This document shows, piece after piece, positions 8,651 to 24,199 of a stretch of 64,000 bases of DNA. The stretch covers positions 186,001 through 250,000 of the forward strand of contig AYMW01000002.1 in assembly GCA_000496475.1 (NCBI GenBank), written 5' to 3'. Origin of the DNA: Betaproteobacteria bacterium MOLA814. GTDB lineage: Bacteria; Pseudomonadota; Gammaproteobacteria; Burkholderiales; Burkholderiaceae_C. Numbering within the stretch: position 1 is the stretch's first letter; the number at the start of each line of letters is the position of its first letter. Made by a program: the position numbers and the translations under genes. Under the pieces are notes generated by a model that searched no databases, was not told the origin of the DNA, and was given only the letters and a program-made list of their open reading frames with translations.

Positions 8651-11600
8651 TTACCCCAACCAATTTCTTGCATTTGTCCACAAGTCTGCCCACGGGCTGG
8701 CTGCGCTGATATCGCCGTCTGTCCAGCTCATTTGAACGTTTCTAAACACGCGCTCTGGGTGCGGCATCATGGCGGTGAAGCGGCCATCTGGGGTTGTGAC
8801 TGCCGTCAAGCCACCTTGGCTGCCATTGGGGTTTGCCGGGTATTGCTCTGTAGCTAGACCACTGTTATCCACAAAACGCATGGCTGCCACTACAGTGTCA
8901 GCTTGCCCGCGGTGCTCAAAATTTGCAAAGCCTTCGCCGTGTGCCACAGCTATGGGCAAACGCGCACCTTGCAGGCTGCTTAAAAACACACTGGGCGATG
9001 GCAGCACCTCGACCATGCTGAGGCGTGCTTCAAACCGCTGGCTCTGGTTGGTTGTGAAACGGGGCCATGCTTGCGCACCAGGAATCATTGGGGCCAATTC
9101 GGCAAACATCTGGCAGCCGTTGCACACGCCCAAGCCAAAGGTCGTGTCGCGTTGGAAAAACTGTTGGAACTGCGCGGCCAATGCCTCATTGAACACAATG
9201 CTTCGTGCCCAGCCAATGCCCGCACCCAACGTGTCGCCGTAGCTAAAACCACCACATGCCACCAACCCTTGGAAGTCAACGAGTCTGGCACGTCCAGCTT
9301 GCAAGTCGCTCATGTGAACATCAACCGCTTCAAAGCCGCCCATGTCAACGCTGTAAGCCATCTCAACATGTGAGTTCACGCCCTGCTCGCGCAAAACTGC
9401 CACGCGGGGACGCTTGGTATGAACGGCAGGGGCTGAAACCGTTTTTGTTGAGCGCTGAGCAGGTACAAACACATGCAAACCAGGGTCATTGGACAAGCCA
9501 ATACCGGCGTGTTCTGTATCAGCACCTTGCGGGTTATCGCGCAAACGGCATATTTGCCAACTCACGCTGTCCCATAAGGCGTGAAGATCTGGCAGCGAGG
9601 CATCAAAAATAGATTGTGTATCGCGCCAAACTTGCACACGGCCTTTACCGACTGGCATGGCCGCAGTGTCTGGTCGTGTTTTACCCACCACGTGGCTGCA
9701 CGCAGACAAGCCATGCTGACGCAATATTGCAAATGCTTGGTCGCGGTGATGCGTTGCCACTTGCAACACCACGCCCAACTCCTCGTTAAACAGGGCTTTA
9801 ATGGATTGTTCTTGACGACGCGCGCTGACTTGCTGCGCCCAGTTTTTGCTGTCACCAACATCCATTTTGCTGTCGCCGATACCGTCACCTTCCAGCAGCA
9901 GCATGTCAATGTTGAGCGCTACACCCACGTTGCCAGCAAATGCCATCTCACACACGGTTGCCAGCAGGCCGCCATCGCTGCGGTCGTGGTAAGCCATCAG
10001 CAAGCCCTCGTCACGCATGGCGTTGACAGCATGAACGGTCGCAACCAGGTCGTTTGCATCGTCTAGATCTGGCGTGATGTCCCCGGTTTGGTTGAGAACT
10101 TGGGCCAGCATGCTGGCACCCATGCGCATACGGCCACGGCCTAGGTCTACCAGCAACAGGCTGGTATCGACTTCATCGCGGTTGAGTTGTGGCGTTAGCG
10201 TTGAGCGTACGTCATCTATTGAGGCAAAGGCCGTCACAATTAAACTAACGGGGGAGACCACCTTGTGGTCTTGTTGCTTGTCGTCTTGCCACTGTGTGCG
10301 CATAGACAAGCTGTCCTTACCAACAGGAATGGATACATTCAAGGCGGGACACAAGGCCATGCCAACCGCCTGCACGGTGTGGTACAGGGCAGCGTCTTCA
10401 TAGGCTTCGCCACAAGCGGCCATCCAATTGGCCGAGAGTTTGATTTTTTCGAGATCTATGGGTGCAGCCAGTGCATTGAGAACCGCTTCAGCCACAGCCA
10501 TGCGACCGCTTGCAGGCGCATTAAGTGAGGCAATTGGGCTGCGCTCGCCCAAGGCCATGACCTCGCCTGCAAAGCCTGTGAAATCAGCAAGGGTTACGGC
10601 ACAGTCGGCCACTGGCACTTGCCACGGCCCAACCATTTGATCTCTATGTGTCAAGCCACCAACAGTTCTGTCACCAATTGTGATGAGGAAGCGCTTGGAA
10701 GCAACAGACGGCGCGCCCAAGACAGCAATGACAGCTTGCTCTAACTGGATGTCATCTAGCACCATAGGGCTGAAACTGCGCGTGATACTGCTCACGTCAC
10801 GCGACAACCGTGGCATGGTGCCCAGCAACACATCCATGGGCAGATCTACAGCGCGCCCAGCAAGCGGTGATGCCGTTGTTGGTGTGTCTGTGCCGACCAT
10901 CGGCAGGCGCTCGTCGGCCACCACCAGTTGGCGGTGTTCAGTGGCCACACCCACTACGGCAGCAGGACAGCGCTCACGCTGTGCCATGGCTTGCAATGCG
11001 GCCCAAGACTGCGGCGCTATGGCCAAGACATAACGTTCCTGGCTCTCGTTACACCACATCTCCTTGGCCGCCATGCCAGACTCTTCTAGTGGAATGGCTG
11101 ATAAGTCAAAAAATGCGCCCCGCCCTGCGTCATTGGTGAGTTCAGGAAAAGCGTTGGACAAACCGCCAGCGCCTACATCGTGAATAGCCAAAATGGGATT
11201 GGCTTGGCCCATGCGCCAGCAGTGGTTGATCACTTCTTGTGCTCGGCGTTCAATCTCTGGGTTGCCGCGCTGCACAGAGTCAAAGTCAAGCGCTGCATTG
11301 TTGCTGCCACTGGCCATAGAGCTTGCTGCCCCACCACCCATGCCAATACGCATACCGGGGCCGCCAATTTGTACCAGCAAAGTACCAGCAGGGAATTGAA
11401 TTTTGTGTGTCAAGGCTTGGTCAATAACGCCTAGTCCACCCGCAATCATGATGGGCTTATGAAAGCCACGGTGTACCGTGTCTTGTTCACTTGTCACCAG
11501 TTGCTCGTAACTGCGAAAATAGCCCGTTAAATTGGGCCGCCCAAATTCGTTGTTAAACGCCGCAGCGCCAAGCGGGCCCTGCAACATGATGTCCAACGCG

Positions 11601-12721
11601 CTGGCCATGTGCTGTGGTGGTTGAGGCAAATCACCCATACCCACAGACGGGACCACGGCGCAATCAAGGTTGGGCCAACGCAAGGCCGAAACTGTAAAGC
11701 CTGTAAGGCCAGCTTTGGGCGCAGAGCCACGACCGGTTGCACCCTCGTCGCGTATTTCTCCGCCAGCACCCGTTGCCGCACCTTCAAAAGGACTAATGGC
11801 TGTGGGGTGATTGTGTGTTTCAACCTTCATCAGGACATGGCGCACGGCGTCTGTGTGCTTGTATGTACTGGGCTGGGCTGCTTGCTCTGGCGCAAAAGCA
11901 CTGACTGCATGGCCTTGCATCACGGCGGCGTTGTCTGAATAAGCCACCACAGTGTGATTCGGTTGAAGCCGGTGGGTATTGCGAATCATGTCAAACAAGG
12001 TGCTGTCTTGTTGTTTGCCGTCTATGGTGAATTGAGAGTTGAATATTTTGTGTCGACAGTGCTCACTGTTGGCCTGGGCAAACATCATCAACTCCACATC
12101 AGTGGGGTTTCGAGCCAAGCGCACATACGCAGCTTGAAGGTAATCGACCTCAGCGGCTGACAAAGCCAAACCATACATGGTGTTGGCTTGCTCAAGTGCC
12201 GCCTGTCCATTGCCCAATACATCAATAACAGCCATAGGCATGCTGTCTTTAATGGCAAATAGCTGGGCCACACCATCTTGTGTGTCCAAGACGGTTTGCG
12301 TCATGCGGTCGTGCAGCAAAGCCAACACGGCTTCACGGTGCTCGACGGTGAGCTTGGTTGCGTGCTTGAACACCAAGCGCCAATGCGTGACTCTTTCTAA
12401 ACGCAGCAGGCCAATGCCGCAGTTGCGAGCGATGTCAGTGGCTTTAGATGCCCATGCTGACAAGGTTCCTAAACGGGGGCACACCCACACATCCATCGTG
12501 TGCTTGGCATGCTGCATGTCTGATACCACGCCAGTTGTAGGAAGCAGCAGCGCTTGCAGTTTGTCGGTATCGCTGGCGACAACGCCACTGGCAACAAACT
12601 GATGAACAGCTTGAAACGATTGAACACCGGGCTGTAGGGATTTGAGTTGAGCGAGCAGCTGTAGCTGAGAGAAGTTACTCAAAGCGTTAGAGCCTTGAAA
12701 GTAGCGCAATGGCGTGGTCAC
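8651..12721 (-). CDS. purL: Phosphoribosylformylglycinamidine synthase (single-chain, large type)
   Basis: Catalyses step four of purine synthesis, converting FGAR to FGAM with glutamine and ATP. Visible parts are the N-terminal PurS-like region, the catalytic domain with [15 protein letters not shown] and [19 protein letters not shown], a second AIRS-like half, and a C-terminal class I glutaminase. The glutaminase has the Cys nucleophile in GVCNGCQMF and a His/Glu pair in [10 protein letters not shown] prefer the GTG at 12721, which gives 1356 residues and the family-like start [16 protein letters not shown]. An ATG at 12868 is also in frame but adds 49 non-family residues and overlaps the neighbouring gene by 20 bases. 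Confidence 0.95.
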
Positions 12722-12848
12722 TGTTTGGCCTTGATGTACACGACTAGGTCCAAGGCTGCTAGCGCCTTTTGCTGATTCGCATGTGCGCCGCACAAGCGGC
12801 TTTAAAAATTCAATGTATTTTAAGTCAAGCCGACGCCGCCAAAGCGCT

Positions 12849-13220
12849 TCACAGGTGAAACATGCCATTTTTGCCCGCTATAGCGTTGCGCATGTAGAGC
12901 TGCAACAACAGGGCTTGAAACGTGGGTGTAATGAGGCCAGGTTCTTGGGCCAACATGCGCTTGAGCACGTCGGTTGTTATTTCAAGGCAAGTTACATCGC
13001 CTTTGGCTACAGCAGATGCACTGCGCACCCCGCCAGATAAGATAGCTTGCTCGCCAAATGAGTCACCCGCTGTGAGTTCAGCAATGTTGGTGCCGGTGTC
13101 AGGGTCGACCATTTTGACGCTGCCCTGCTGAATCATGTAAAAGCGCTCTGCAATGTCGCCTTTATTGAACAGCACTTGGCCGTCGGTGTAGTTACCTTGA
13201 GGAAATTTAACTGCTGTCAT
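12849..13220 (-). CDS. Stand-alone cyclic-nucleotide-binding domain protein
   Basis: A 123-residue protein made of a single CNB (CAP_ED) fold with no DNA-binding or catalytic domain. The barrel reads [20 protein letters not shown] and then [20 protein letters not shown]. The phosphate-binding-cassette Glu57 and Arg66 expected for cAMP or cGMP binding are both present. The start ATG overlaps the stop of the upstream gene (ATGA), so the two are co-translated. Divergent from a chemosensory operon that contains an adenylate cyclase, it is a natural candidate reader of that cAMP, which is inference. How it would pass the signal on is unknown. Confidence 0.82.
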
Positions 13221-13702
13221 TTCAGAGCCGCCGGAAATTCTCTAATGTGCAATATGCGCGCAATGGTGCTGCGGCAAATGCCCTTCAAGCCGCTGTTGGC
13301 CTTGGATACACCACGCACTGCGGCATCGATTGGGATCATTTTGGTGTTGACTGCTGTTTGGGCTTTTACTGCGCAACTCGCTTGTATACCCAGCAAGCCT
13401 TCAGACAAACCAATCACAGCGCCAGGGCCAACTCTGTAGGTACCCTCTGGGTGAATGATTTCAACAGTTCCCGAGACAACGACATGCGCTGTAGCAACCA
13501 ACTCGTCCTTGTGCATCAACACACTTCCCGAAACGAATACGGCTGTTGTGAGATTCGGGTTAGCCATCAGTTGAAACAGCAATCGCTCGTCACTGCTCAG
13601 GTTTAAGTTCGCGTAGTATTCGGCTGAATGGCTGCGCCCACTTTCACTGAACGAAATCGAGCTAAACCTACTTGTATCGATTGAAAAAATAATATCGCTC
13701 AA
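13217..13702 (-). CDS. Cyclic-nucleotide-binding-like domain protein with degenerate pocket
   Basis: A 161-residue protein. A Ser-rich, non-family N terminus of about 50 residues is followed by a CNB-like barrel: SGSVLMHKDELVATAHVVVS, GTVEII, and GPGAVIGLSEGLLG. The GE...R signature of a functional phosphate-binding cassette is missing: GLS replaces GE and no Arg follows, so ligand binding is doubtful. The start appears to be TTG at 13702; the next ATG would remove the N-terminal region. It is first of the two-gene unit with the stand-alone CNB gene and divergent from cheA across a 131-base AT-rich spacer. Other cupin-like barrels are a possible alternative. Confidence 0.62.
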   Translation of the reverse strand: MSDIIFSIDTSRFSSISFSESGRSHSAEYYANLNLSSDERLLFQLMANPNLTTAVFVSGSVLMHKDELVATAHVVVSGTVEIIHPEGTYRVGPGAVIGLSEGLLGIQASCAVKAQTAVNTKMIPIDAAVRGVSKANSGLKGICRSTIARILHIREFPAALK

Positions 13703-13833
13703 AATATATTTCTTTTAATTAAAAGTAATTTAAATATGCATTATTAAAATTAAATCAATACATATACATTGGTTCTATACCTACATCTTGACACAAATAG
13801 TCAACGGATGCTCAATGAAATTGTCTACTTTGA
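13703..13833. promoter_or_regulatory. AT-rich divergent spacer between the CNB pair and cheA
   Basis: This 131-base gap is far richer in A and T than its surroundings and must hold the promoters for both directions. A consensus-like TTGACA lies at 13788-13793 on the plus strand, but no good -10 follows at the right distance. I see no sigma-28 (TAAA...GCCGATAA) or sigma-54 signature. Many TTAAT/ATTAA words could suit an H-NS-type silencer or an AT-binding regulator; this is inference. Confidence 0.45.
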
Positions 13834-16134
13834 TTGAAAAATACAATTTACTGGAGAAGAGCTCTGTCTGACCTCACATCAAGATCTTTGATATTGGATA
13901 ATCTGAATCAAATCGGTATCGATCTTGCGTTTTCAGACTTGTCAAACTTTAGTGATGTACAAGCCATTCAAATGCAACTGGATTCAATACATAAATTACC
14001 AGGTTTACCTGCAGATGTAGAACAGATTATTCAACTAGGTTTAACGCAATTACCAGTATGGGCTGCGCAAGCTCAAGTGGACGTGACAGCAGCAATGGTT
14101 GAAGTGGGCCAATGGTTTAGCCAAGCTGAGTTGTTGTGCCTATCCAGAAATGATGACCCACTAGACACTGATGACGCAATACTGACGGCTTTTCCAGATG
14201 CTGCCATCAGCTTGACCAGCAAGCAACAATTTTCAATAGGACCAGCTTTGGGTGTGAACCCAGCACAAAGCCTGACTGAGCCAGTACAGACACAAGTACC
14301 GCCCGATACCACGCTGGACACTGAACGCATAGAACTCAACTTAGAACGTGATGCTGATCTGTTGCGCGAATTTTGTAATGAAGCGAGCGAGCTGCTCAGC
14401 GATATTGAACAAGGGTTGCTGACGCTTGAAGCCAGGCCTCAAGACAAAGAAACACTCAATGCAATATTTCGTGCTTTTCATACGTTCAAAGGCGGTGCGG
14501 GCATGTTAAAGCTTTTGCCTATTCAGCATATGACTCATCAGCTCGAGTCTATTTTGGATAAGGCCCGACGCAATCAGCTGACTGTAGACGCCAACGTCGT
14601 GAGCCTTATTTTGCAAGCTGCAGACGGCGTCAGTAATGCAGTGAACGATATGTTGACGGCTCTAAGCACGTCGCAAGAAAGGGTATTTATAAATTTTAAC
14701 TCGCACGCAATATTGGCCAATGTGGCACGGGTTCTCAACGGTGATAGCGTGGTTGTTCATGACCCGGTCAAGCAGTCAACGCCTTCAAACGAAGCCCCAA
14801 ATAGTCTAGCTGGGAAAGAACAATCCACGGTCACTCAAGATATGGAACTTACGCGTACTGTCTGGGAAAAATCCGCAGATATACCGCCCACTGAAGACGA
14901 TGCGCTGATCCAAACTATGAATAACAGCGCAGACACCAACATCAAAGTAGGTGCGCGAAAGTTAGACGAGCTCATAGACTTGGTAGGTGAGTTGATGATT
15001 GCCCAGTCAATGGTCACGCAGCATGAAATAGCCAAGAACTTAGCCGACGACGGGTGGGAACGGGCTGTGCTTCAGTTGTCAAGAATTACAAAAGAATTGC
15101 AACGCACCACCATGCTGGTGCGCATGGTGCCAGTCTTCAATACATTTAAAAAAATGACACGCTTGGTGCGTGATTTGAGTGCCCAACAAAACAAGTTGGT
15201 TGATTTGGTGCTGGTTGGCGAATCGCTGGAACTGGATCGCTCAATTGTTGATGCGTTGGCAGTTCCCTTGGCTCATATGATTCGCAACGCGGTTGGGCAT
15301 GGTATTGAACAACCCGATGAGCGCACAGCCAACGGCAAGTCTGAGCGCGGTCGCATCGTGTTGTCTGCGTTTCAACGCGGCGGCTCTTTCGTCATTCAAA
15401 TATCGGACGATGGGCGTGGCTTGTCGCGTGGAAAAATTCGCGACAAAGCGATTGCCAAAGGGCTCATTACGCAAGATCAAGTGGTGGCCGATGCTGATTT
15501 ATTTGACTTTATATTTAATGCGGGGTTTTCGACCGTGACGAACATCACAGATGTGTCTGGACGTGGCGTCGGCATGGACGTCGTGAAGCAAAGCATGTCG
15601 TCGCTGCGTGGCACAGTCGATCTCGAGTCAGAAGATGGTCTCAGCACACAAATAACCATAACGCTACCGCTCACGTTGGCCATTATTGACGGGTTGGTAG
15701 TTCTAGTTGGGCGCGAACGTTACATATTACCTGCGCTCATGGTACGCGAGTGCTTGCGTCCTACCCCGGAGATGCTAGGTTTGACATCCACCCAAGGCGA
15801 GGTTGTTCGTATACGTGATCAACTCATTCCAATTGTAAAACTCAGCAACCATTTTCATATTGCAGATGCCGTGTCAAATCCATGTCAAGGGATCTTAGTT
15901 GTTGTTGAAACAGGCCGCCAACAGATAGCGTTGATGGCGGATCAAATTTTAGACAAACAAGAATTGGTCATCAAATCGTTAGGCGCCAGCTTCCAACAAC
16001 AAACGTTGCTGTCGGGTGCATCGGTCATGAGCGATGGACTGGTGTCATGCATTTTAAATCTTGACGCTCTTGCTGAACAATGCAACAAACGCTCAACCAC
16101 CAGTGCGCAATCCGTTGCAATCGCTCACGCATAA
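13834..16134 (+). CDS. cheA: Chemotaxis-type histidine kinase CheA
   Basis: Kinase of the chemosensory complex, up to 766 residues. An unrecognised N-terminal region (about 1-165) precedes an Hpt domain with phospho-His216 in FRAFHTFKGGAG. After a linker with no clear P2 domain come the dimerisation helices (KLDELIDLVGELMIAQ), the ATPase domain (N-box HMIRNAVGHGIE, His481 and Asn485; ISDDGRGL; the lid VSGRGVGMDVV) and a C-terminal CheW-like domain. Position 488 is Gly where CheA normally has Asp (DHG). The 5-prime end is unclear: this frame opens with TTG at 13834, while an SD-like GGAGAAG lies inside it and an ATG frame at 13815 runs into it out of phase. cheW follows after 38 bases. Confidence 0.9.
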   Translation: MKNTIYWRRALSDLTSRSLILDNLNQIGIDLAFSDLSNFSDVQAIQMQLDSIHKLPGLPADVEQIIQLGLTQLPVWAAQAQVDVTAAMVEVGQWFSQAELLCLSRNDDPLDTDDAILTAFPDAAISLTSKQQFSIGPALGVNPAQSLTEPVQTQVPPDTTLDTERIELNLERDADLLREFCNEASELLSDIEQGLLTLEARPQDKETLNAIFRAFHTFKGGAGMLKLLPIQHMTHQLESILDKARRNQLTVDANVVSLILQAADGVSNAVNDMLTALSTSQERVFINFNSHAILANVARVLNGDSVVVHDPVKQSTPSNEAPNSLAGKEQSTVTQDMELTRTVWEKSADIPPTEDDALIQTMNNSADTNIKVGARKLDELIDLVGELMIAQSMVTQHEIAKNLADDGWERAVLQLSRITKELQRTTMLVRMVPVFNTFKKMTRLVRDLSAQQNKLVDLVLVGESLELDRSIVDALAVPLAHMIRNAVGHGIEQPDERTANGKSERGRIVLSAFQRGGSFVIQISDDGRGLSRGKIRDKAIAKGLITQDQVVADADLFDFIFNAGFSTVTNITDVSGRGVGMDVVKQSMSSLRGTVDLESEDGLSTQITITLPLTLAIIDGLVVLVGRERYILPALMVRECLRPTPEMLGLTSTQGEVVRIRDQLIPIVKLSNHFHIADAVSNPCQGILVVVETGRQQIALMADQILDKQELVIKSLGASFQQQTLLSGASVMSDGLVSCILNLDALAEQCNKRSTTSAQSVAIAHA

Positions 16135-16172
16135 ATGTGCACCCGTAGACTTTTTTCAAATTTGACATCATT

Positions 16173-16718
16173 ATGAAAAAAATTGCAGTCACTCACAAGT
16201 ACTTGGCCTTCAGTTTAGGTGGTGAACACTTTGGCGCACCAGTCTTGCAGGTGCGTGAAATTGTCCGGTTGGTGCCTATCACGCCTGTTCCACAAATGCC
16301 AGACTATGTCAAGGGAGTGATCAACTTGCGGGGACGCATCATCACCGTTGTAGACATGCGGGTGCGTTTAGGCACACACATTAGCCCTAATAGTGAACGG
16401 CACTGCATCGTAGTTTGTCAGATCGAAGACAGCAACAAATCTGGTAGCTTTGTAGGCGTAATTGTCGACACCGTTGATGAGGTCATGTCTATTGGCCCTG
16501 ATGACATACAAGAGCGTATCCCTATGAACGCAAGCAACGACGCGGAATATGTCTTGGGCATGACACATTGCGGTGGTCAAGTCAGAACAATCATGGACAT
16601 GCAACTGTTTTTAAAACACATCACCTCACAGCGAGTGACAACCGCCGCTCATGTCACAGCACAAACTACCCGACCAACAGCAGATGCAGACATACCCAAG
16701 CTAGAAAGTCACGTGTGA
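16173..16718 (+). CDS. cheW: CheW coupling protein
   Basis: Adaptor that links receptors to CheA. A single CheW domain of 181 residues shows [20 protein letters not shown], the core [20 protein letters not shown], and a second half [21 protein letters not shown] Thr-rich tail of about 30 residues follows. Its last codon and stop overlap the GTG start of the next receptor gene (GTGA), coupling adaptor and receptor translation. Confidence 0.95.
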
Positions 16719-18451
16719 GCTACGACATTCGGCAATGGTCCATCCATACCCGCATATTGTCTGCATTGGCTTTTGCATGTGTATTGACCATTGGCTTTGG
16801 CGCTGCGGCAATCAAGTCGATATTTGTGGGACAGCATGCTTTATCTGCAGTTGCTGACCAACACCTACCCAAAACTATTTTTTTATCTAATTTGTACGGT
16901 AGTTTGACTCGAAGTTACTTCAGTCCAACAGCATACGCAAGAGCCAACGAATCGACGCGTGTCTCTATAAAAAATGAACTCGACGTTCGCATGGCAGAGC
17001 AACGCGTGATTGCTCTCGCATTGGAAAACCACGCCCTCACTCCAAAAACCAGGGCTATATCCTCGGACATCAGGCAAAGAATAAAGCTGACAAATGAATC
17101 AATTAACAAATATATTGAATCATTTGACGATTTCTTTATTCCCATAAGCAAACAAGTAGAAACGGGGGCAGCATTATCGATACGCATGTTGGATGTAAAT
17201 AACGCGGTGCTTCTCATGCTCGAGTCCGCCCGTCAGGGGGCCATTAGTGAATCGGAAAATCTAAACACCGCATTGAAACATGCGGTCAGAGTGGTACTTT
17301 TTGGGGTTGTTTGTGTCCTGATTGCCACATGCGTATTGGCTGTGTTGGTTGGGGGCGTCACGCGCAAACAGCTTCTTGCTTTAGGGACACAGCTGGCAGA
17401 CGGTACATCTCGCAACGCCTTAGCTTCGGCTGAGGTCTTAGGCGGCAGTCAACGCCTAGCCAGCGGGGTCAGAGAACAGGCTGTGGGTATTGAGCAAATT
17501 CGAGCTTCGCTGGAGGCGTTGGCTACCATGACACAAACAACATCTGTCAATGCGGCAGATGCGTCGATTTTTACAAAAGATGCCAGCGAATCCACCGCCG
17601 CTGGATCAGAAACCATGACCAATATGAGCCAGGCAATGTTGGCAATTGAAGCCTCAAGTGCAGAGGTGTCTAAGATTTTAAAAAATATTGACGAGATCGC
17701 TTTTCAAACAAATCTCTTGGCCTTGAACGCTGCAGTCGAAGCAGCACGCGCTGGCGAAGCGGGTGCAGGGTTTGCCGTGGTGGCTGACGAAGTGCGATCT
17801 CTGGCACAACGCAGTGCCGCTGCGGCAAAGGAAACGTCGGGAAAAATTGAAACTTCAATTGCCAACTGCAAACGTGGAACACTCAGCTGCGTGGCGCTCG
17901 AAAGTGCGTTGAGCGAGACTGTAAAAAAGATTAAGCTTGCCAACAGTTTAGCAAGTGAAATTGCAATTGCCGCAAGCGAACAGACCAACGCAATTGTACA
18001 AATTGCAACTGCGGTTACCCACATGAACTCAGTGACCCAAGACAACAGTGCACATGCTGATGCGACTGCCAGCACCGCTGCGAATATGCGCAATCAAGCC
18101 CTAGATATCCAGCACCTGGTACATGATTTCATGACCTTGGCACAAGCCAATACAGACAAGCATGCTGACAAGGATCAAGCCCGTTTACGACCTGAGATTG
18201 ATCGATCAAAGTCATCCACACCAGACATAAACATTGACAACTTGTCTGCCAAGAAAAACAGGGTGATCAATTCAAAGAAGGCAGCTGTAGCGGTTGTAAC
18301 CTCGAAAAAATCTGCAGCGACTCGCCACGTCAGCAACGAGTCATCGCAGGCAGTCATGCCGATGCCTGCAGCTGATTTAAGTACAACTCTGAAACGTCCA
18401 CCGCAGTCCAGACAAGCGTTAACAACCGACAAAGAATTTACAGATTTTTAA
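16715..18451 (+). CDS. Methyl-accepting receptor, HAMP-less, with a CheR-tether-like C terminus
   Basis: Inner-membrane chemoreceptor of 578 residues starting at a GTG that overlaps the cheW stop. A first membrane helix ([19 protein letters not shown]) is followed by a helical periplasmic domain of about 150 residues, a second helix near [20 protein letters not shown], and then directly the signalling coiled coil. No HAMP domain is seen. The hairpin tip is [20 protein letters not shown] and [17 protein letters not shown]. After the coiled coil comes a linker of about 100 residues rich in Lys, Ser and Ala that ends EFTDF. This fits the aromatic-x-x-aromatic pentapeptide that tethers CheR on other receptors. 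Ligand unknown. Confidence 0.92.
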
Positions 18452-18479
18452 CGCTCACTTACCAGTAGGAGATACACAC

Positions 18480-19937
18480 ATGACCAATAAATTGACACAG
18501 TGGACCATCACTCAAAGGTTGTACTTGCTCTCTAGCAGCATCATCTTATTAGTAGCAGTAGGAGTAGGGGTTGCCTACATGTCGTTACATAACGCCAAAG
18601 ACACGCTGAGCTCGATAGCCGCTATCCACGTGCCTAAAAGTGTAATTTTGTCAAATATTTTTGAAACGATCTCACTGGATGCAATCGACACTGAAGCTTA
18701 CATATCGGCAAATCTTGCTGAGCGCAACGACATTGAAGCGGCCAAACAAAAATCGGTAGCTGAAAATCTGATTCGCACCCAAAAAATTCAGGCTTTTGAA
18801 CTTATGGAAGGGTCACGGGGACTGATTGATGACGTCGCTAAAAAGCTGGATGAATTGGATGATGTAACCACCACATATTTGCGTATTGCACCATCACAAT
18901 CAACGACTGAGGAAGAATTACTAAAGGTCACTGAAGACTACAGAAACAAACGATTACTGGCCATGGGTGCAACGTTAACAATGATGAAAGCAGCACAAAC
19001 CAAAGCCCTGACCGAGACTGATAACCTAGCGCAAAACCTAAACAATGTCATTACCAGATTATTAACGACTGTTTTGGTAATTTTATTTATTGGAACGGTC
19101 ATGACCGTGGTGGTAGGTCACCGTACCTCGCGCGTACTGCTTCAAGTAGGTGATGAGTTACAAGAAGGCGCATCAACCACTTCCACCGCGGCCCAAAATA
19201 TATCGAACTTAAGTGAAGAGCTATCCGAAGGTGCCACTGAGCAAGCCGCAGCTGTAGAGGAAGTAAGCGCCTCGTTGGTTGAGCTTTCTAGCATGACCAG
19301 TTCAACAGCCGTCAATGCAAAAAAAGCATCTACGCTAGCAACTCAAGCGCGGGAGTCAGCAGCGTTAGGCTCCAACACAATGGTGAAAATGAGTCAAGCG
19401 ATGTTGGCGATCGCAACCTCTAGTTCAGAAGTCTCAAAGATAGTCAAAGGCATTGATGAAATTGCATTTCAAACCAATCTCCTGGCGCTGAATGCAGCCG
19501 TCGAAGCTGCCCGTGCTGGGGAAGCTGGCGCAGGCTTTGCTGTGGTTGCAGACGAGGTACGCTCGTTAGCGCAGCGCAGCGCAGCAGCAGCTCGGGAAAC
19601 AGCGGAAAAAATTGCTACTGCAATTGACAACAGTCAACGTGGTACCCAAAGCTGCGATGAACTAGTTGGTGTTTTGGCTGAGATTGTAGAAAAAACACGT
19701 TTAGCGGACAGCTTGGTCATTGAAATAGCAGTAGCTTCAGACCAACAGTCGAGTGGTATAGCGCAAATAAGCACAGCCCTTATACAAATGAGTGGCGTTA
19801 CACAAACCAACGCCATCGGTGCCGAAAGCTCATTGAATACATCGCAGGATATGCGCGCCCAAGCCGTTCATACGGAGCATTTGGTTCAGAATCTTTTGCA
19901 ACTTGTGACGCGAACACCCAAAATGTCGACTACCTGA
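18480..19937 (+). CDS. Methyl-accepting receptor, HAMP-less, paralogue of the preceding one
   Basis: Second chemoreceptor, 485 residues, with an AGGAG ribosome site just before its ATG. The architecture matches its neighbour: membrane helix at about 15-37, a helical periplasmic domain (4-helix-bundle type by appearance), membrane helix near [19 protein letters not shown], and the signalling coiled coil without HAMP. The hairpin tip is nearly identical ([20 protein letters not shown]). It ends soon after the coiled coil (PKMSTT) and has no CheR-binding pentapeptide. The pair looks like a tandem duplication with diverged sensor domains. Confidence 0.92.
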
Positions 19938-19945
19938 CCTTTCTC

Positions 19946-20782
19946 GTGCTCAAAGCTGCCAATTCCAACGTTACCACCTGCGATATAGGTAGTAATTTTT
20001 TTGAATTGTGTGCCGCTGTTCAAAGGACTTCGGGTCTAAGAATGGATCCGCTAAAACAATCTTTTGCTTCAACGCGTTTAAACAAACGTATGCGTGTTTT
20101 GTCTCTCAAAGACTTGGATGCTTATAGTGCATATACGTTGTTGAACCAAAACGAATTACGCTTGTGCATCGAAGCTCTGGTAACTCACCACACGCGTTTT
20201 TTTCGTGAAGATGAACATTTCGAAAAACTGAGCAGTCAACTATTGGTCGATACGGCAGGTGTGATCAAGCTTTGGTGTGCTGCTTGCTCCAGCGGCGAGG
20301 AGGCTTATACCTTGGCCATTATCTTGGATCAGTGGTCGCGCAAGGGAACAGAGAGGCGCTATGTGATACAAGCCTCGGACATCAGCGAGCAAGCAGTGTC
20401 GGTAGCCAGAGCCGGCATTTATAGACAAAGTGCGCTGGCGTTGCCACAGACAGACTGGCTTGCAAGGTATTTCCAAAAAGGAACAGGGTCTCAACTTGGA
20501 AAGTGCAGGGTAAAGGCAGAATTTCGAGCCAAGATAAACTTTCATTCGCATAATTTGTTAACACCAGCAGTAGAAAAAATTGCAAGAGACGGACCTTACG
20601 ATGTCATATTTTGTCGCAACGTACTCATTTACTTTGAAAAATCAACGCAACAGGCTGTTATCGGCAATTTGCTGTCGTGCCTCAAGCCCGGTGGTCATCT
20701 GATTGTAGGAATGGCGGAGCACGTGGACATTCAGGTACAAAAAATTACTTCTTTGGGCAGTGGCGTCTATAAAAAAATGTAA
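19946..20782 (+). CDS. cheR: CheR receptor glutamate methyltransferase
   Basis: SAM-dependent methyltransferase that methylates receptor glutamates for adaptation, 278 residues. An N-terminal helical domain ends in VTHHTRFFREDEHF. The SAM fold has motif I WCAACSSGEEAYTLA, QASDIS, and FCRNVLIYF, closing with PGGHLIVGMAEH. The start is a GTG at 19946, 8 bases after the preceding receptor. Paired with cheB, it shows that this array has a full methylation-adaptation circuit. Confidence 0.93.
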   Translation: MLKAANSNVTTCDIGSNFFELCAAVQRTSGLRMDPLKQSFASTRLNKRMRVLSLKDLDAYSAYTLLNQNELRLCIEALVTHHTRFFREDEHFEKLSSQLLVDTAGVIKLWCAACSSGEEAYTLAIILDQWSRKGTERRYVIQASDISEQAVSVARAGIYRQSALALPQTDWLARYFQKGTGSQLGKCRVKAEFRAKINFHSHNLLTPAVEKIARDGPYDVIFCRNVLIYFEKSTQQAVIGNLLSCLKPGGHLIVGMAEHVDIQVQKITSLGSGVYKKM

Positions 20783-20801
20783 TTCCAGCAAAAAAATTAT
20801 T

Positions 20802-21941
20802 ATGAGGCCTTTTAAAAAAATTACAGTTCTCGTCATAGATGATTCAGCACTTGTTCGCCGCACAATTTCAGATGCGCTGAATGCTGACGATGATATCGAG
20901 GTGGTAGGTGTTGCCAGTGACCCTTTTATCGCTAGAGAAAAAATTCTTAGTCTGAACCCAGACGTGCTGACGTTAGACATAGAGATGCCGCGTATGGACG
21001 GTTTAACTTTTTTAAAGATCTTGGCAAAGCACCACCCTATGCCTGTGCTTGTGGTGAGCTCCTTGACTGAAGAGGGGTCTGAAACGGCTATGCAGTGCAT
21101 GGAGGCCGGAGCCTCTGAGGTGCTGTCTAAGCCTGACGGCAGTATGTCTGTTGGAGCCCTAAGCGCGCAACTAGCGCATCATGTTAAGGCCGTCTACGCG
21201 GCAGAACGAAGGGAGAAAGCGCTAACAGCCCAACCGCACAACACCAACGTTCACGTTGCAACCTCTTCGAAAACTCTTAACAAACATGGCGACGATAAAC
21301 AACATGCCGTTTCTACCGTCGGTCGTACTTCCGAAGTCCGCATTACATCAAAGCTCAACGACAAGCGATTATTGGTGATAGGGTCCTCAACTGGGGGGGT
21401 TAAAGCTCTGACATGTGTCATCCCATCGTTACCTAAAAATTGCCCACCTACCGTTGTAGTTCAACACATACCCTCACACTTTTCAAAGGTGTTGGCACAA
21501 CGTTTAAACGATATGTCGCAGGTCAACGTGCGTGAGGCTGAAGACGGCGAGGTTCTAACAGAAGGTGTGTGCTTAATTGCACCCGGTGGCTTTCACATCG
21601 CTGTGTTGAATACGCCTAAAGGCTACCAAGTGCGACTCACACAAACACCACCCATTCATTTTTGCAGACCTGCTGTCGACGTTTTATTTACGTCTGCAGC
21701 AAAAGCAGCAGGATCGCAAACTACGGCTGTGTTGTTAACAGGTATGGGGAGCGACGGTGCACAAGGAATGCTCAATGTCATGACAGCTGGTGGCGACACA
21801 ATTGCAGAAGATGAAAGCACCTGCGTTGTGTATGGCATGCCGCGCGCAGCCGGCTTACTTAACGCAGTAAAGACCAAGCTGCCTTTGCCACATATCGCGC
21901 ACGGCATCGCCAAGTCACTTAATCAGCTGGCGGTTTATTGA
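20802..21941 (+). CDS. cheB: CheB receptor methylesterase / glutamine deamidase
   Basis: Two-domain adaptation enzyme of 379 residues. The receiver domain has VLVIDDSALVRRTIS with the phospho-acceptor Asp in LTLDIEMPRMDG and VLSKP. A variable linker of about 60 residues leads to the methylesterase with the triad Ser in IGSSTGGVKAL, His in VVQHIPSHFS and Asp in GMGSDGAQGM. I chose the ATG at 20802 (MRPFKKITVLVID) over a GTG at 20760 inside cheR. It is spaced 19 bases from cheR and 18 from the cyclase. CheA phosphorylates CheB directly in known systems. Confidence 0.94.
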   Translation: MRPFKKITVLVIDDSALVRRTISDALNADDDIEVVGVASDPFIAREKILSLNPDVLTLDIEMPRMDGLTFLKILAKHHPMPVLVVSSLTEEGSETAMQCMEAGASEVLSKPDGSMSVGALSAQLAHHVKAVYAAERREKALTAQPHNTNVHVATSSKTLNKHGDDKQHAVSTVGRTSEVRITSKLNDKRLLVIGSSTGGVKALTCVIPSLPKNCPPTVVVQHIPSHFSKVLAQRLNDMSQVNVREAEDGEVLTEGVCLIAPGGFHIAVLNTPKGYQVRLTQTPPIHFCRPAVDVLFTSAAKAAGSQTTAVLLTGMGSDGAQGMLNVMTAGGDTIAEDESTCVVYGMPRAAGLLNAVKTKLPLPHIAHGIAKSLNQLAVY

Positions 21942-21959
21942 TATGGACGGCAATTTGAT

Positions 21960-23126
21960 ATGAAGCCTAACCTAGAAGTAAACAGCATTGACTTTGACAG
22001 TTTTTGGCTTCACGGCGTTAATTCAGCGGATGAGGTGTCGCAACTAACAGCAACAGAAATAACCAAGCGAGCACACATCTTGGTGGTAGACGACAGCAGC
22101 ACTATGCGAGCCGCGTTGGTGCACGAACTAGCTGGTTTGGGCTACACACACATTTCACAAGTACATGATGGCCAAAGTGCATTGGACTTACTGAACAACA
22201 ACGTAGTAGATTTGGTGTTACTCGATATTGAAATGCCTGGTATTTCGGGTATGGATGTATTGACTACGATGAAGTCTGGTAAGAAGCTCTCACCGGTTCC
22301 AGTCATAGTCATATCAGGCATCCTTGACGAAGATAAAGTGATGAAGTGTATCGAGCTGGGAGCAGAGGACTTTTTATCAAAGCCTTTCAATCCAACTTTG
22401 CTAAAGGCACGGGTGTCGTCGAGTATTGAAAAAAAACTATTACGCGACTTAGAACTTAAACATGTTGAAGAGATGCGAAAAGAACAAGAGCAATTAGCGC
22501 TAGAAAAAGACAAGTCTGATCGCTTGCTTCTCAATATATTGCCAGCACTGATTGCTCATGAACTAAAAACAAACACCAGCGAAATCTCTCAGGCACACGA
22601 TGAGGTCACTGTGTTGTTTTCAGACTTGGTAGGCTTTACTTCGTTTTCTCGCTCAGTGAGTGCAAGCGAACTGGTGCATATGCTGAACCGAGTGTTTAGC
22701 GCGTTTGACGATTTGGCTTTTCACCTAAAGCTGGAAAAAATTAAAACAATTGGTGACGCCTATATGCTGGTTGGCGGCTTGCCCATTGCCAGGCCTGACC
22801 ACGCGCAAGCCTGCATTCAAATGGGGTTGGGCATGATCACAGCGTTAGAGGTTGTCAACAAGTCATTGGGCTGCAGCCTGCAAATGCGCATAGGCATGCA
22901 TTCAGGCCCAGTGGCGGCGGGTGTCATTGGCAAAAGAAAGTTTGCTTACGACATATGGGGTGACACCGTCAATACGGCCAGCCGCATGGAGTCAACTGGA
23001 CAAGCTGGCTGTATCCAGGTGTCGCAAAGCACTTACGAGTTCGCCCGCGGGTGCTTTCACTTCGAGCCAACTGGTGGCGTCGATTGCAAAGGTATTGGTT
23101 TGATGCCCAGCTATCTGGTGTCATAA
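21960..23126 (+). CDS. Response regulator fused to a class III adenylate cyclase
   Basis: Likely output enzyme of the chemosensory array, 388 residues. The receiver domain (about 37-150) has acidic Asp44/Asp45, phospho-acceptor Asp89 and Lys141. A coiled segment (155-190) leads to the cyclase transducer LLLNILPALIAHELK, then the class III cyclase domain. Metal ligands are Asp222 (LFSDLVGFT) and Asp266 (TIGDAYM). The substrate-choice residues are Lys262 and Asp331 (AYDIWGDTVN), the adenylate pair rather than the Glu/Cys pair of guanylate cyclases. Transition-state Asn338 and Arg342 are present. It is predicted to make cAMP in the cytoplasm under control of CheA phosphorylation. The last gene of the tight che operon. 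Confidence 0.93.
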   Translation: MKPNLEVNSIDFDSFWLHGVNSADEVSQLTATEITKRAHILVVDDSSTMRAALVHELAGLGYTHISQVHDGQSALDLLNNNVVDLVLLDIEMPGISGMDVLTTMKSGKKLSPVPVIVISGILDEDKVMKCIELGAEDFLSKPFNPTLLKARVSSSIEKKLLRDLELKHVEEMRKEQEQLALEKDKSDRLLLNILPALIAHELKTNTSEISQAHDEVTVLFSDLVGFTSFSRSVSASELVHMLNRVFSAFDDLAFHLKLEKIKTIGDAYMLVGGLPIARPDHAQACIQMGLGMITALEVVNKSLGCSLQMRIGMHSGPVAAGVIGKRKFAYDIWGDTVNTASRMESTGQAGCIQVSQSTYEFARGCFHFEPTGGVDCKGIGLMPSYLVS

Positions 23127-23245
23127 ACAGGTCGATACGCAGCTTATAGCTACAGAAAATTCAATACATATGAACTGGTTGTGGTTAGGTCTAGGCCCGG
23201 CTTTATGGGGTACCGCTGCACATTTACAACAGATGAGGGGACATA

Positions 23246-24199
23246 ATGCAAGTGCACTATCAAGCATGTGCACTCCTTGAGACATTACCGCCACAACTTA
23301 CCAAACCAATGAGCAGTGACTTAATCAAAAAAGCCTGCTGTAAAGGCGCAATCATGGCCAAAGACCTCACAATTAACATGGCTCAGGTGAGCCATGCTTT
23401 GAACGAACTACATGAATCGTGGCGCAGCCAGACTTGGGCTGGTCTGCCTACAGTCGTTGGCAATTGTTTAAGTACCTTGGGCTACACACACGCCTGGGCG
23501 CAACAGCAACGTGGCGTGGTAAGTCGCTTCATGAACGCACTGCATACCTTGGCCGAAGATGTTGAATGCATAGGCTTAGACATGCAAGAGCGCGGGGTAG
23601 AACCGGCTTACCACCACCGCAAACATATGGCACAAGTGGTCACCAGCATGACAGCGCTCTTGTTGGCCAGACGTAACAACAACACATTGAACAACCAACA
23701 AATGTGTCAAGAATTGTCACTGGTTGTGTGTGCCTTAGGCCACGATGTGCTGCACGATGGACAGCGCAACAAGTCGCGGCGGGAAGCTGAAATTCGTTCA
23801 GCGAGTTATGTCACGTCCATGATGAAGGTGGCCGGTCTTGGCACCTACTGGCGCACCCGTGTAGCCACCATCATAGAGCTGACTGACCCTGTTGACAGCG
23901 TCACCAATCACGCTGTGCACGCTAACAACCGTGACCTAAAAGACTTGATGGTGTGCTGCGTTCTAACCAATGAGGCAGATATCTTAGCCAGCACATTACC
24001 AGACTTAGGTGCTGGGCTGACCGAAGAGCTGGCTGCAGAGTGGGATCAATACTATCCTAAAGAGTCACAGGGCTTGCGCTCCAACGACGGGCGAATTTTC
24101 TTTTTAAAACGACTCGCTTTGTTTTCAAGCACCGCGTCGCACCGCTTGGGACTGCCCGCTATTCGTCACCAACAGCTTGTTGCATTGGGTGCAGCTTAA
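23246..24199 (+). CDS. Class I (eukaryote-type) cyclic-nucleotide phosphodiesterase-like HD protein
   Basis: A 317-residue protein whose second half matches the PDEase_I fold. YHHRKHMAQVV gives the acid His123 and metal ligand His127. GHDVLHDG gives His166, Asp167 and His170, close to the HD-x-x-H-x-G signature of class I phosphodiesterases. TNEADILAS supplies the final metal ligand Asp245, and IIELTDP fits the helix before it. The first 100 residues are not recognised. GAGGGG lies 5 bases before the ATG at 23246, fixing the start. It follows the adenylate cyclase after 119 bases and precedes map by 41. It is predicted to hydrolyse cAMP; the family call rests on motifs read by eye. Confidence 0.72.
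   Translation: MQVHYQACALLETLPPQLTKPMSSDLIKKACCKGAIMAKDLTINMAQVSHALNELHESWRSQTWAGLPTVVGNCLSTLGYTHAWAQQQRGVVSRFMNALHTLAEDVECIGLDMQERGVEPAYHHRKHMAQVVTSMTALLLARRNNNTLNNQQMCQELSLVVCALGHDVLHDGQRNKSRREAEIRSASYVTSMMKVAGLGTYWRTRVATIIELTDPVDSVTNHAVHANNRDLKDLMVCCVLTNEADILASTLPDLGAGLTEELAAEWDQYYPKESQGLRSNDGRIFFLKRLALFSSTASHRLGLPAIRHQQLVALGAA

Follow-up and report, generated by a model that had tools for sequence, protein, structure and literature searches.

Analysis of a 64,000-nucleotide window from Betaproteobacteria bacterium MOLA814 (positions 186,001 to 250,000 of contig AYMW01000002.1; G000:C2:186001-250000, from a three-contig genome of 2.86 Mb that we refer to as G000) uncovered a ten-gene island in which a chemosensory operon lies beside genes predicted to make, break and read cyclic AMP (cAMP). 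The open reading frame (ORF) listing and Pfam matches recovered all ten genes at the places, and in the order, given in the original prediction for this DNA, and the spacing described there for the che unit, from 4-base overlaps to gaps of 38 bases, holds within that unit. The island is flanked by purL on one side and map-glnD on the other, and its G+C content is 47.6%, compared with 53-54% on the flanks. The functions of all locus proteins are assigned here from sequence.

The chemosensory core is encoded on the forward strand. It opens with cheA (13834-16134; start codon uncertain), whose product contains Hpt, dimerisation, ATPase and CheW domains in Pfam searches, followed by cheW (16173-16718; 7e-35) and two genes for methyl-accepting chemotaxis proteins (MCPs), each with two transmembrane helices by hydropathy. 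MCP1 (16715-18451; 5.5e-38) has a signalling domain and ends in EFTDF (18430-18448), which we take to resemble a CheR-tethering pentapeptide, while MCP2 (18480-19937; 1.7e-40) carries a weak four-helix-bundle sensor. The methyltransferase CheR (19946-20782; 1.6e-49), in which Pfam detected no TPR, precedes CheB (20802-21941), recognised by Pfam and by alignment to the CheB of a congener (G001) as a receiver (REC) domain joined to a methylesterase; its start is placed near 20802 rather than at position 20760, where the listed ORF begins, because homologues begin there. In an alignment of seven CheA proteins, the phospho-accepting Hpt residue H216 and the ATPase motifs are invariant, so that MCP, CheW and a CheA with the expected phosphotransfer and kinase motifs are all present. 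The CheA also has an N-terminal extension of ~165 residues before the Hpt domain (13834-14340), without a Pfam match, that is kept in G001.

The next gene (21960-23126, forward strand) encodes a REC-adenylate cyclase, with matches to Response_reg (4e-27) and Guanylate_cyc (1e-58). Alignments found the receiver residues D44, D45, the phospho-acceptor D89, S119 and K141 all intact, along with the metal aspartates D222 and D266, the adenine-type selectors K262 and D331, and N338/R342 of the cyclase, the residue set of a class III adenylate cyclase. Among solved proteins, the cyclase part is closest to adenylate cyclases and the receiver to PleD and CheY, and the five catalytic receiver positions are also intact in most relatives, three other families included. 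With a multidomain response regulator as its predicted output, the operon shares a feature with the ACF class of chemosensory systems. A scan of named genomes with the cyclase mainly brought up cyclase-domain relatives, in Bacteroidota and elsewhere, and che genes were seldom found beside them. In Methylotenera/Methylophilaceae (L040, L077), a cyclase ~50% identical in the catalytic domain and a che cluster that includes a CheY-sized receiver protein are encoded a few kb apart.

Beginning 119-227 bases 3′ of the cyclase gene is a gene for a class-I-type cyclic nucleotide phosphodiesterase (PDE; 23354-24199, forward strand), whose start is placed near 23354 rather than at the 23246 of a longer ORF, again because homologues begin there. 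Its PDEase_I match (1.7e-5) is only slightly above the cut-off of that model. The metal motif YHxRKH, HDxxHxGxxN and EAD, corresponding to the class I signature of YHN..H, HD..H.G..N and a downstream Asp, is kept almost without exception in 11-13 homologues. A profile built from 11 of the homologues matches the human cAMP phosphodiesterase PDE8A (3.8e-8), and among the matches listed for this profile (60 solved structures) all are phosphodiesterases.

On the reverse strand, at the other end of the island, two genes for cyclic nucleotide-binding (CNB) proteins share a 4-base overlap. CNB2 (12849-13220) is a stand-alone CNB domain of 123 amino acids (aa) with an intact phosphate-binding cassette (PF00027, 3e-21), in which the Glu and Arg are kept in five genomes, and its nearest solved relatives are the regulatory domains of cGMP/cAMP-dependent kinases. 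CNB1 (13217-13702) is a degenerate CNB-like partner of 161 aa, whose PF00027 match (4.5e-6) scores 27.0 bits, slightly below the 27.5 cut-off. The suggestion that both proteins could read cAMP fits CNB2, with its intact cassette, and must be qualified for CNB1, in which the cyclic-nucleotide-binding Arg is missing. CNB1 and CNB2 are paired in five genomes, and Pfam found no DNA-binding domain in the linked CNB proteins. In the congener G008, a class III cyclase-TPR gene (L183 3777-5621) is divergent from CNB1 and adjoins it, and in a genome of another family (G404) a SulP-type transporter with STAS and C-terminal CNB domains (L226 15138-17276) is encoded 3′ of the REC-cyclase and is possibly a direct cAMP-gated anion transporter.

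These genes are probably parts of one circuit, running from receptor to CheA to REC-adenylate cyclase to cAMP to CNB2 (with CNB1); the PDE and CheR/CheB would reset it. Ligands would act on MCP1 and MCP2, which together with CheW would set CheA autophosphorylation; phosphate would then pass from CheA both to CheB, which would bring about adaptation jointly with CheR, and to the REC-cyclase, at D89. Once phosphorylated, the receiver of the REC-cyclase would switch the class III cyclase domain and change cAMP, the linked PDE would degrade cAMP and set the return time, and CNB2 would read the signal, probably paired with a non-binding CNB1. Synthesis, hydrolysis and binding of cAMP by the locus proteins are predicted activities; from sequence comparison we infer the phosphotransfer, the sign of its regulatory effect, the role of cAMP as both product and substrate, the CNB1-CNB2 partnership and the target.

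In order to evaluate whether the gene set recurs, a check suggested with the original prediction, we compared genomes of the same order. The whole set lies at the same place in G001, a one-contig congener, with identities of 80% for CNB2, 68% for CNB1, 60% for CheA, 74% for the REC-cyclase and 62% for the PDE. In G001 one frameshift interrupts the single MCP gene and another interrupts cheR (L113 5892-8130), through either assembly error or decay. For the closest congener, G002, one contig begins at the CNB2-purL end and another ends just past the PDE, and the locus probably lies within an assembly gap, since contigs break at both of its edges. In G008, CNB1-CNB2-PDE adjoins a strongly diverged MCP-CheA-CheW-CheB-CheR-REC-cyclase operon (CheA 31% identical), and in G404 a CNB-PDE pair is divergent from an operon of that same gene order. 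CNB1-PDE lies near a REC-cyclase and che cluster in G172, and the PDE is <10 kb from a REC-cyclase in G269. The order was represented by 399 genomes, of which 11 have the PDE and 7 a near-full-length REC-cyclase; the 4 genomes with both have them within 10 kb of each other, a co-occurrence with a hypergeometric p of 1e-5 (2e-4 excluding the window's genome), where genomes are not independent draws and the three non-window genomes represent three families. Wherever a congener has a near-full-length REC-cyclase, the CNB pair is found too (5/5). Because the congener keeps the best-conserved genes at 60-80% identity, and because the PDE and the REC-cyclase, both of them rare, also lie close together in other families, the gene set is not a product of chance. 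These results support a recurrent module in which CheA is wired to cAMP and the PDE and CNB genes are linked to it.

Several observations weigh against this circuit, some of them from two congeners, G003 and G004. At the same purL-map site they carry a che/cyclase operon (L117 1406-7088 and L118 5264-11051) without cheR, CNB or PDE there; the CNB pair is encoded in both genomes, in which no PDE was detected. In the cyclase encoded there, the acid pair, phospho-Asp and Lys are gone from the receiver, although the residues of the cyclase domain remain, as does the His of CheA. Phosphotransfer to the locus cyclase is therefore not universal, given a dead receiver and the loss of cheR in both genomes; either control has been altered there or the receiver was never essential in all members. 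In G003, the CheB receiver is kept while the esterase part seems eroded by eye. Upstream of their CNB pair, G003 and G004 carry a gene that gave no match to a PDE and resembles an alpha/beta hydrolase.

A cyclase scaffolded on the array and free of phosphotransfer control, its receiver being a docking or dimerisation module, would account for an operon that persists, with its cyclase site kept, after the receiver has decayed. The window protein and most relatives nevertheless retain all five catalytic receiver positions, and we regard this explanation as unlikely. The G003/G004 operons would also be expected if the PDE and CNB neighbours were unrelated passengers of the che operon, as would the PDE found alone elsewhere: five genomes of a single genus (g46) have it and lack the REC-cyclase. 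Such chance company is highly improbable in view of the co-occurrence statistics and of linkage repeated in varied arrangements and families. Absences in several congeners count little because their assemblies are incomplete. A further point against the proposed circuit is that the second che operon of G000 itself, MCP-CheA-CheW-CheB-CheR-REC-cyclase (L116, G000:C1:257000-276000, 9220-17014; C1:266-274 kb), has no linked PDE or CNB gene. The cyclase of the second operon is 88% identical to a cyclase of G008 and 75% to one of another family, that of G404, which suggests horizontal spread. Within g46 (L230, L232, L233), a PDE of this family is encoded within ~5 kb of a Popeye-like CNB protein.

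The assignments of the PDE and CNB1 carry their own reservations. Likeness of the PDE to known enzymes is mostly restricted to the metal-binding half; the weak PDEase_I match spans 52 of the 238 Pfam positions, and the C-terminal half with the substrate-binding Gln, like the full class I fold, is a tentative assignment. CNB1 retains a weak fold signature only, and the cassette Arg is found in no full orthologue checked. Single-sequence AlphaFold models of the PDE and CNB1 had a mean predicted local distance difference test (pLDDT) score of 38-39, too poor for use.

The G000 genome, rated 100% complete, encodes two CheA proteins, each within a REC-cyclase operon, and a genome-wide profile search found 13 receiver domains. 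Assigned by reading their sequences, these comprise two LuxR-type, three OmpR-type and one NtrC-type regulator, one RegA-like protein, two hybrid kinases, two CheB and the two REC-cyclases. None of the 13 is a single-domain protein, and within the finite sensitivity of the search G000 therefore has no stand-alone CheY, the motor output of the Fla class. Since both CheA proteins belong to REC-cyclase operons and no stand-alone CheY was found, no CheA output other than CheB and the REC-cyclases is detectable. The original prediction had made the window's cyclase the sole further receiver for CheA; the cyclase type of output is borne out genome-wide, while the second CheA/REC-cyclase operon removes its uniqueness. 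The reported absence of cheY from the window is confirmed by the receiver search, which was run without cheZ or cheD models. The absence of flagellar genes is true locally and incorrect for the genome, as FliE, FliF, FliG, FliH, FliI, FliD, flagellins, FlaG and FliM are encoded on another contig (Pfam).

Flagella in such a cell might be served by ordinary chemotaxis, through a divergent or misassembled CheY encoded elsewhere that escaped a search of finite sensitivity, leaving the cyclase as a side branch. The FliM N-terminus (L277, G000:C3:572193-572738) reads LLSAEELDALAAGM, compared with LSQAEIDALLNG in enteric bacteria, and although the second Leu of the pair is substituted, LSxEELDAL keeps most of the enteric CheY-binding motif, a point in favour of a hidden CheY. 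Loss of this motif, considered as proof of independence from CheY, was accordingly rejected. All 13 receivers in the complete genome are assigned, however, and the one-contig congener G001 and four other genomes (G008, G003, G004 and G404) likewise yielded no CheY-sized receiver frame, while the same search in the CheY-bearing positive control, G269, gave receiver frames of 133, 136 and 139 aa. An overlooked CheY would thus be surprising.

Of the possible targets of a cAMP circuit, swimming is the likeliest single one, because flagellar genes are present, no CheY is detectable and the only two CheA proteins are both tied to REC-cyclases; as the final target, the flagellum is still only a tentative assignment. 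In this lineage, cAMP might have taken over from phosphorylated CheY the task of carrying the signal by diffusion from the array to the flagellar motor or its brake; CNB2/CNB1 would then read it on the motor side, and the PDE would do the work of CheZ. The main rival is gene regulation: the array would set cAMP, a Crp/Fnr-type regulator would read it and alter gene expression, CNB1/CNB2 would act as buffers or accessories, and the flagella would run without tactic control. The genome encodes two such Crp-like proteins with helix-turn-helix domains that could read cAMP, and the Pil-Chp system of Pseudomonas offers a precedent in which cAMP acts through a separate transcription factor. Both proteins, though, fall below the NCBIfam CRP cut-off, in one of them the cassette GE is replaced by GD, and it is CNB proteins free of DNA-binding domains that are recurrently linked to the operon. 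A Crp-type readout is a possibility that we hold with some doubt.

Chemosensory arrays are known to feed cyclic di-GMP (c-di-GMP), as in Wsp, and, indirectly, cAMP, as in Pil-Chp. In the Pseudomonas Pil-Chp/CyaB/Vfr system the cyclase is a separate protein without a receiver and the readout consists of pili and a transcription factor; the shared feature is an array that raises cAMP, whereas the window cyclase bears the receiver itself. The single T2SSE match in G000 is PilB-like and no retraction ATPase was seen, for which reason pilus twitching was judged an unlikely output. E. coli-type flagellar chemotaxis has MCP, CheW, CheA, CheR and CheB in common with the locus, but in G000 no CheY was found and the receiver is on the cyclase. 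The Wsp system, with the REC-diguanylate cyclase WspR, and cluster 2 of Halomonas (PMC5907407) also pass a chemoreceptor-CheA signal into a receiver-bearing cyclase; theirs is a GGDEF enzyme making c-di-GMP, while that of the window is a class III cyclase with cAMP as its predicted product, and Halomonas also has an E. coli-like che cluster alongside cluster 2 (PMC5907407). Response regulators fusing REC to a mononucleotidyl cyclase were tabulated in che clusters in 2012, among multidomain outputs of systems with CheR-TPR (PMC3447774). The window's cluster resembles these ACF-type systems in that fusion, although they were chosen for a CheR-TPR that the window CheR does not match in Pfam, and the portions of that survey considered here do not describe linked PDE/CNB readers or a CheY-less genome (PMC3447774). 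Clusters of a CHASE2-adenylate cyclase and a phosphodiesterase in Campylobacterota (PMC9239204) similarly group a cyclase with a cAMP phosphodiesterase and have spread horizontally, but their sensor is different and they are described without chemosensory genes. In one open-access library we found no description of a module combining an array, a REC-adenylate cyclase, a PDE and CNB readers, in line with the original prediction, which knew of no such described set, or of a CheY-less flagellate relying on one.

The locus links one array to the predicted making, breaking and reading of cAMP, in a flagellated cell without a recognisable CheY. Its small, linked parts list may serve as a compact synthetic receptor-to-cAMP module. 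If the proposed circuit is correct, chemosensing in this bacterium runs on a diffusible second messenger; and if cAMP steers the motor, the locus would represent a second way of building bacterial chemotaxis and would explain tactic swimming without CheY.

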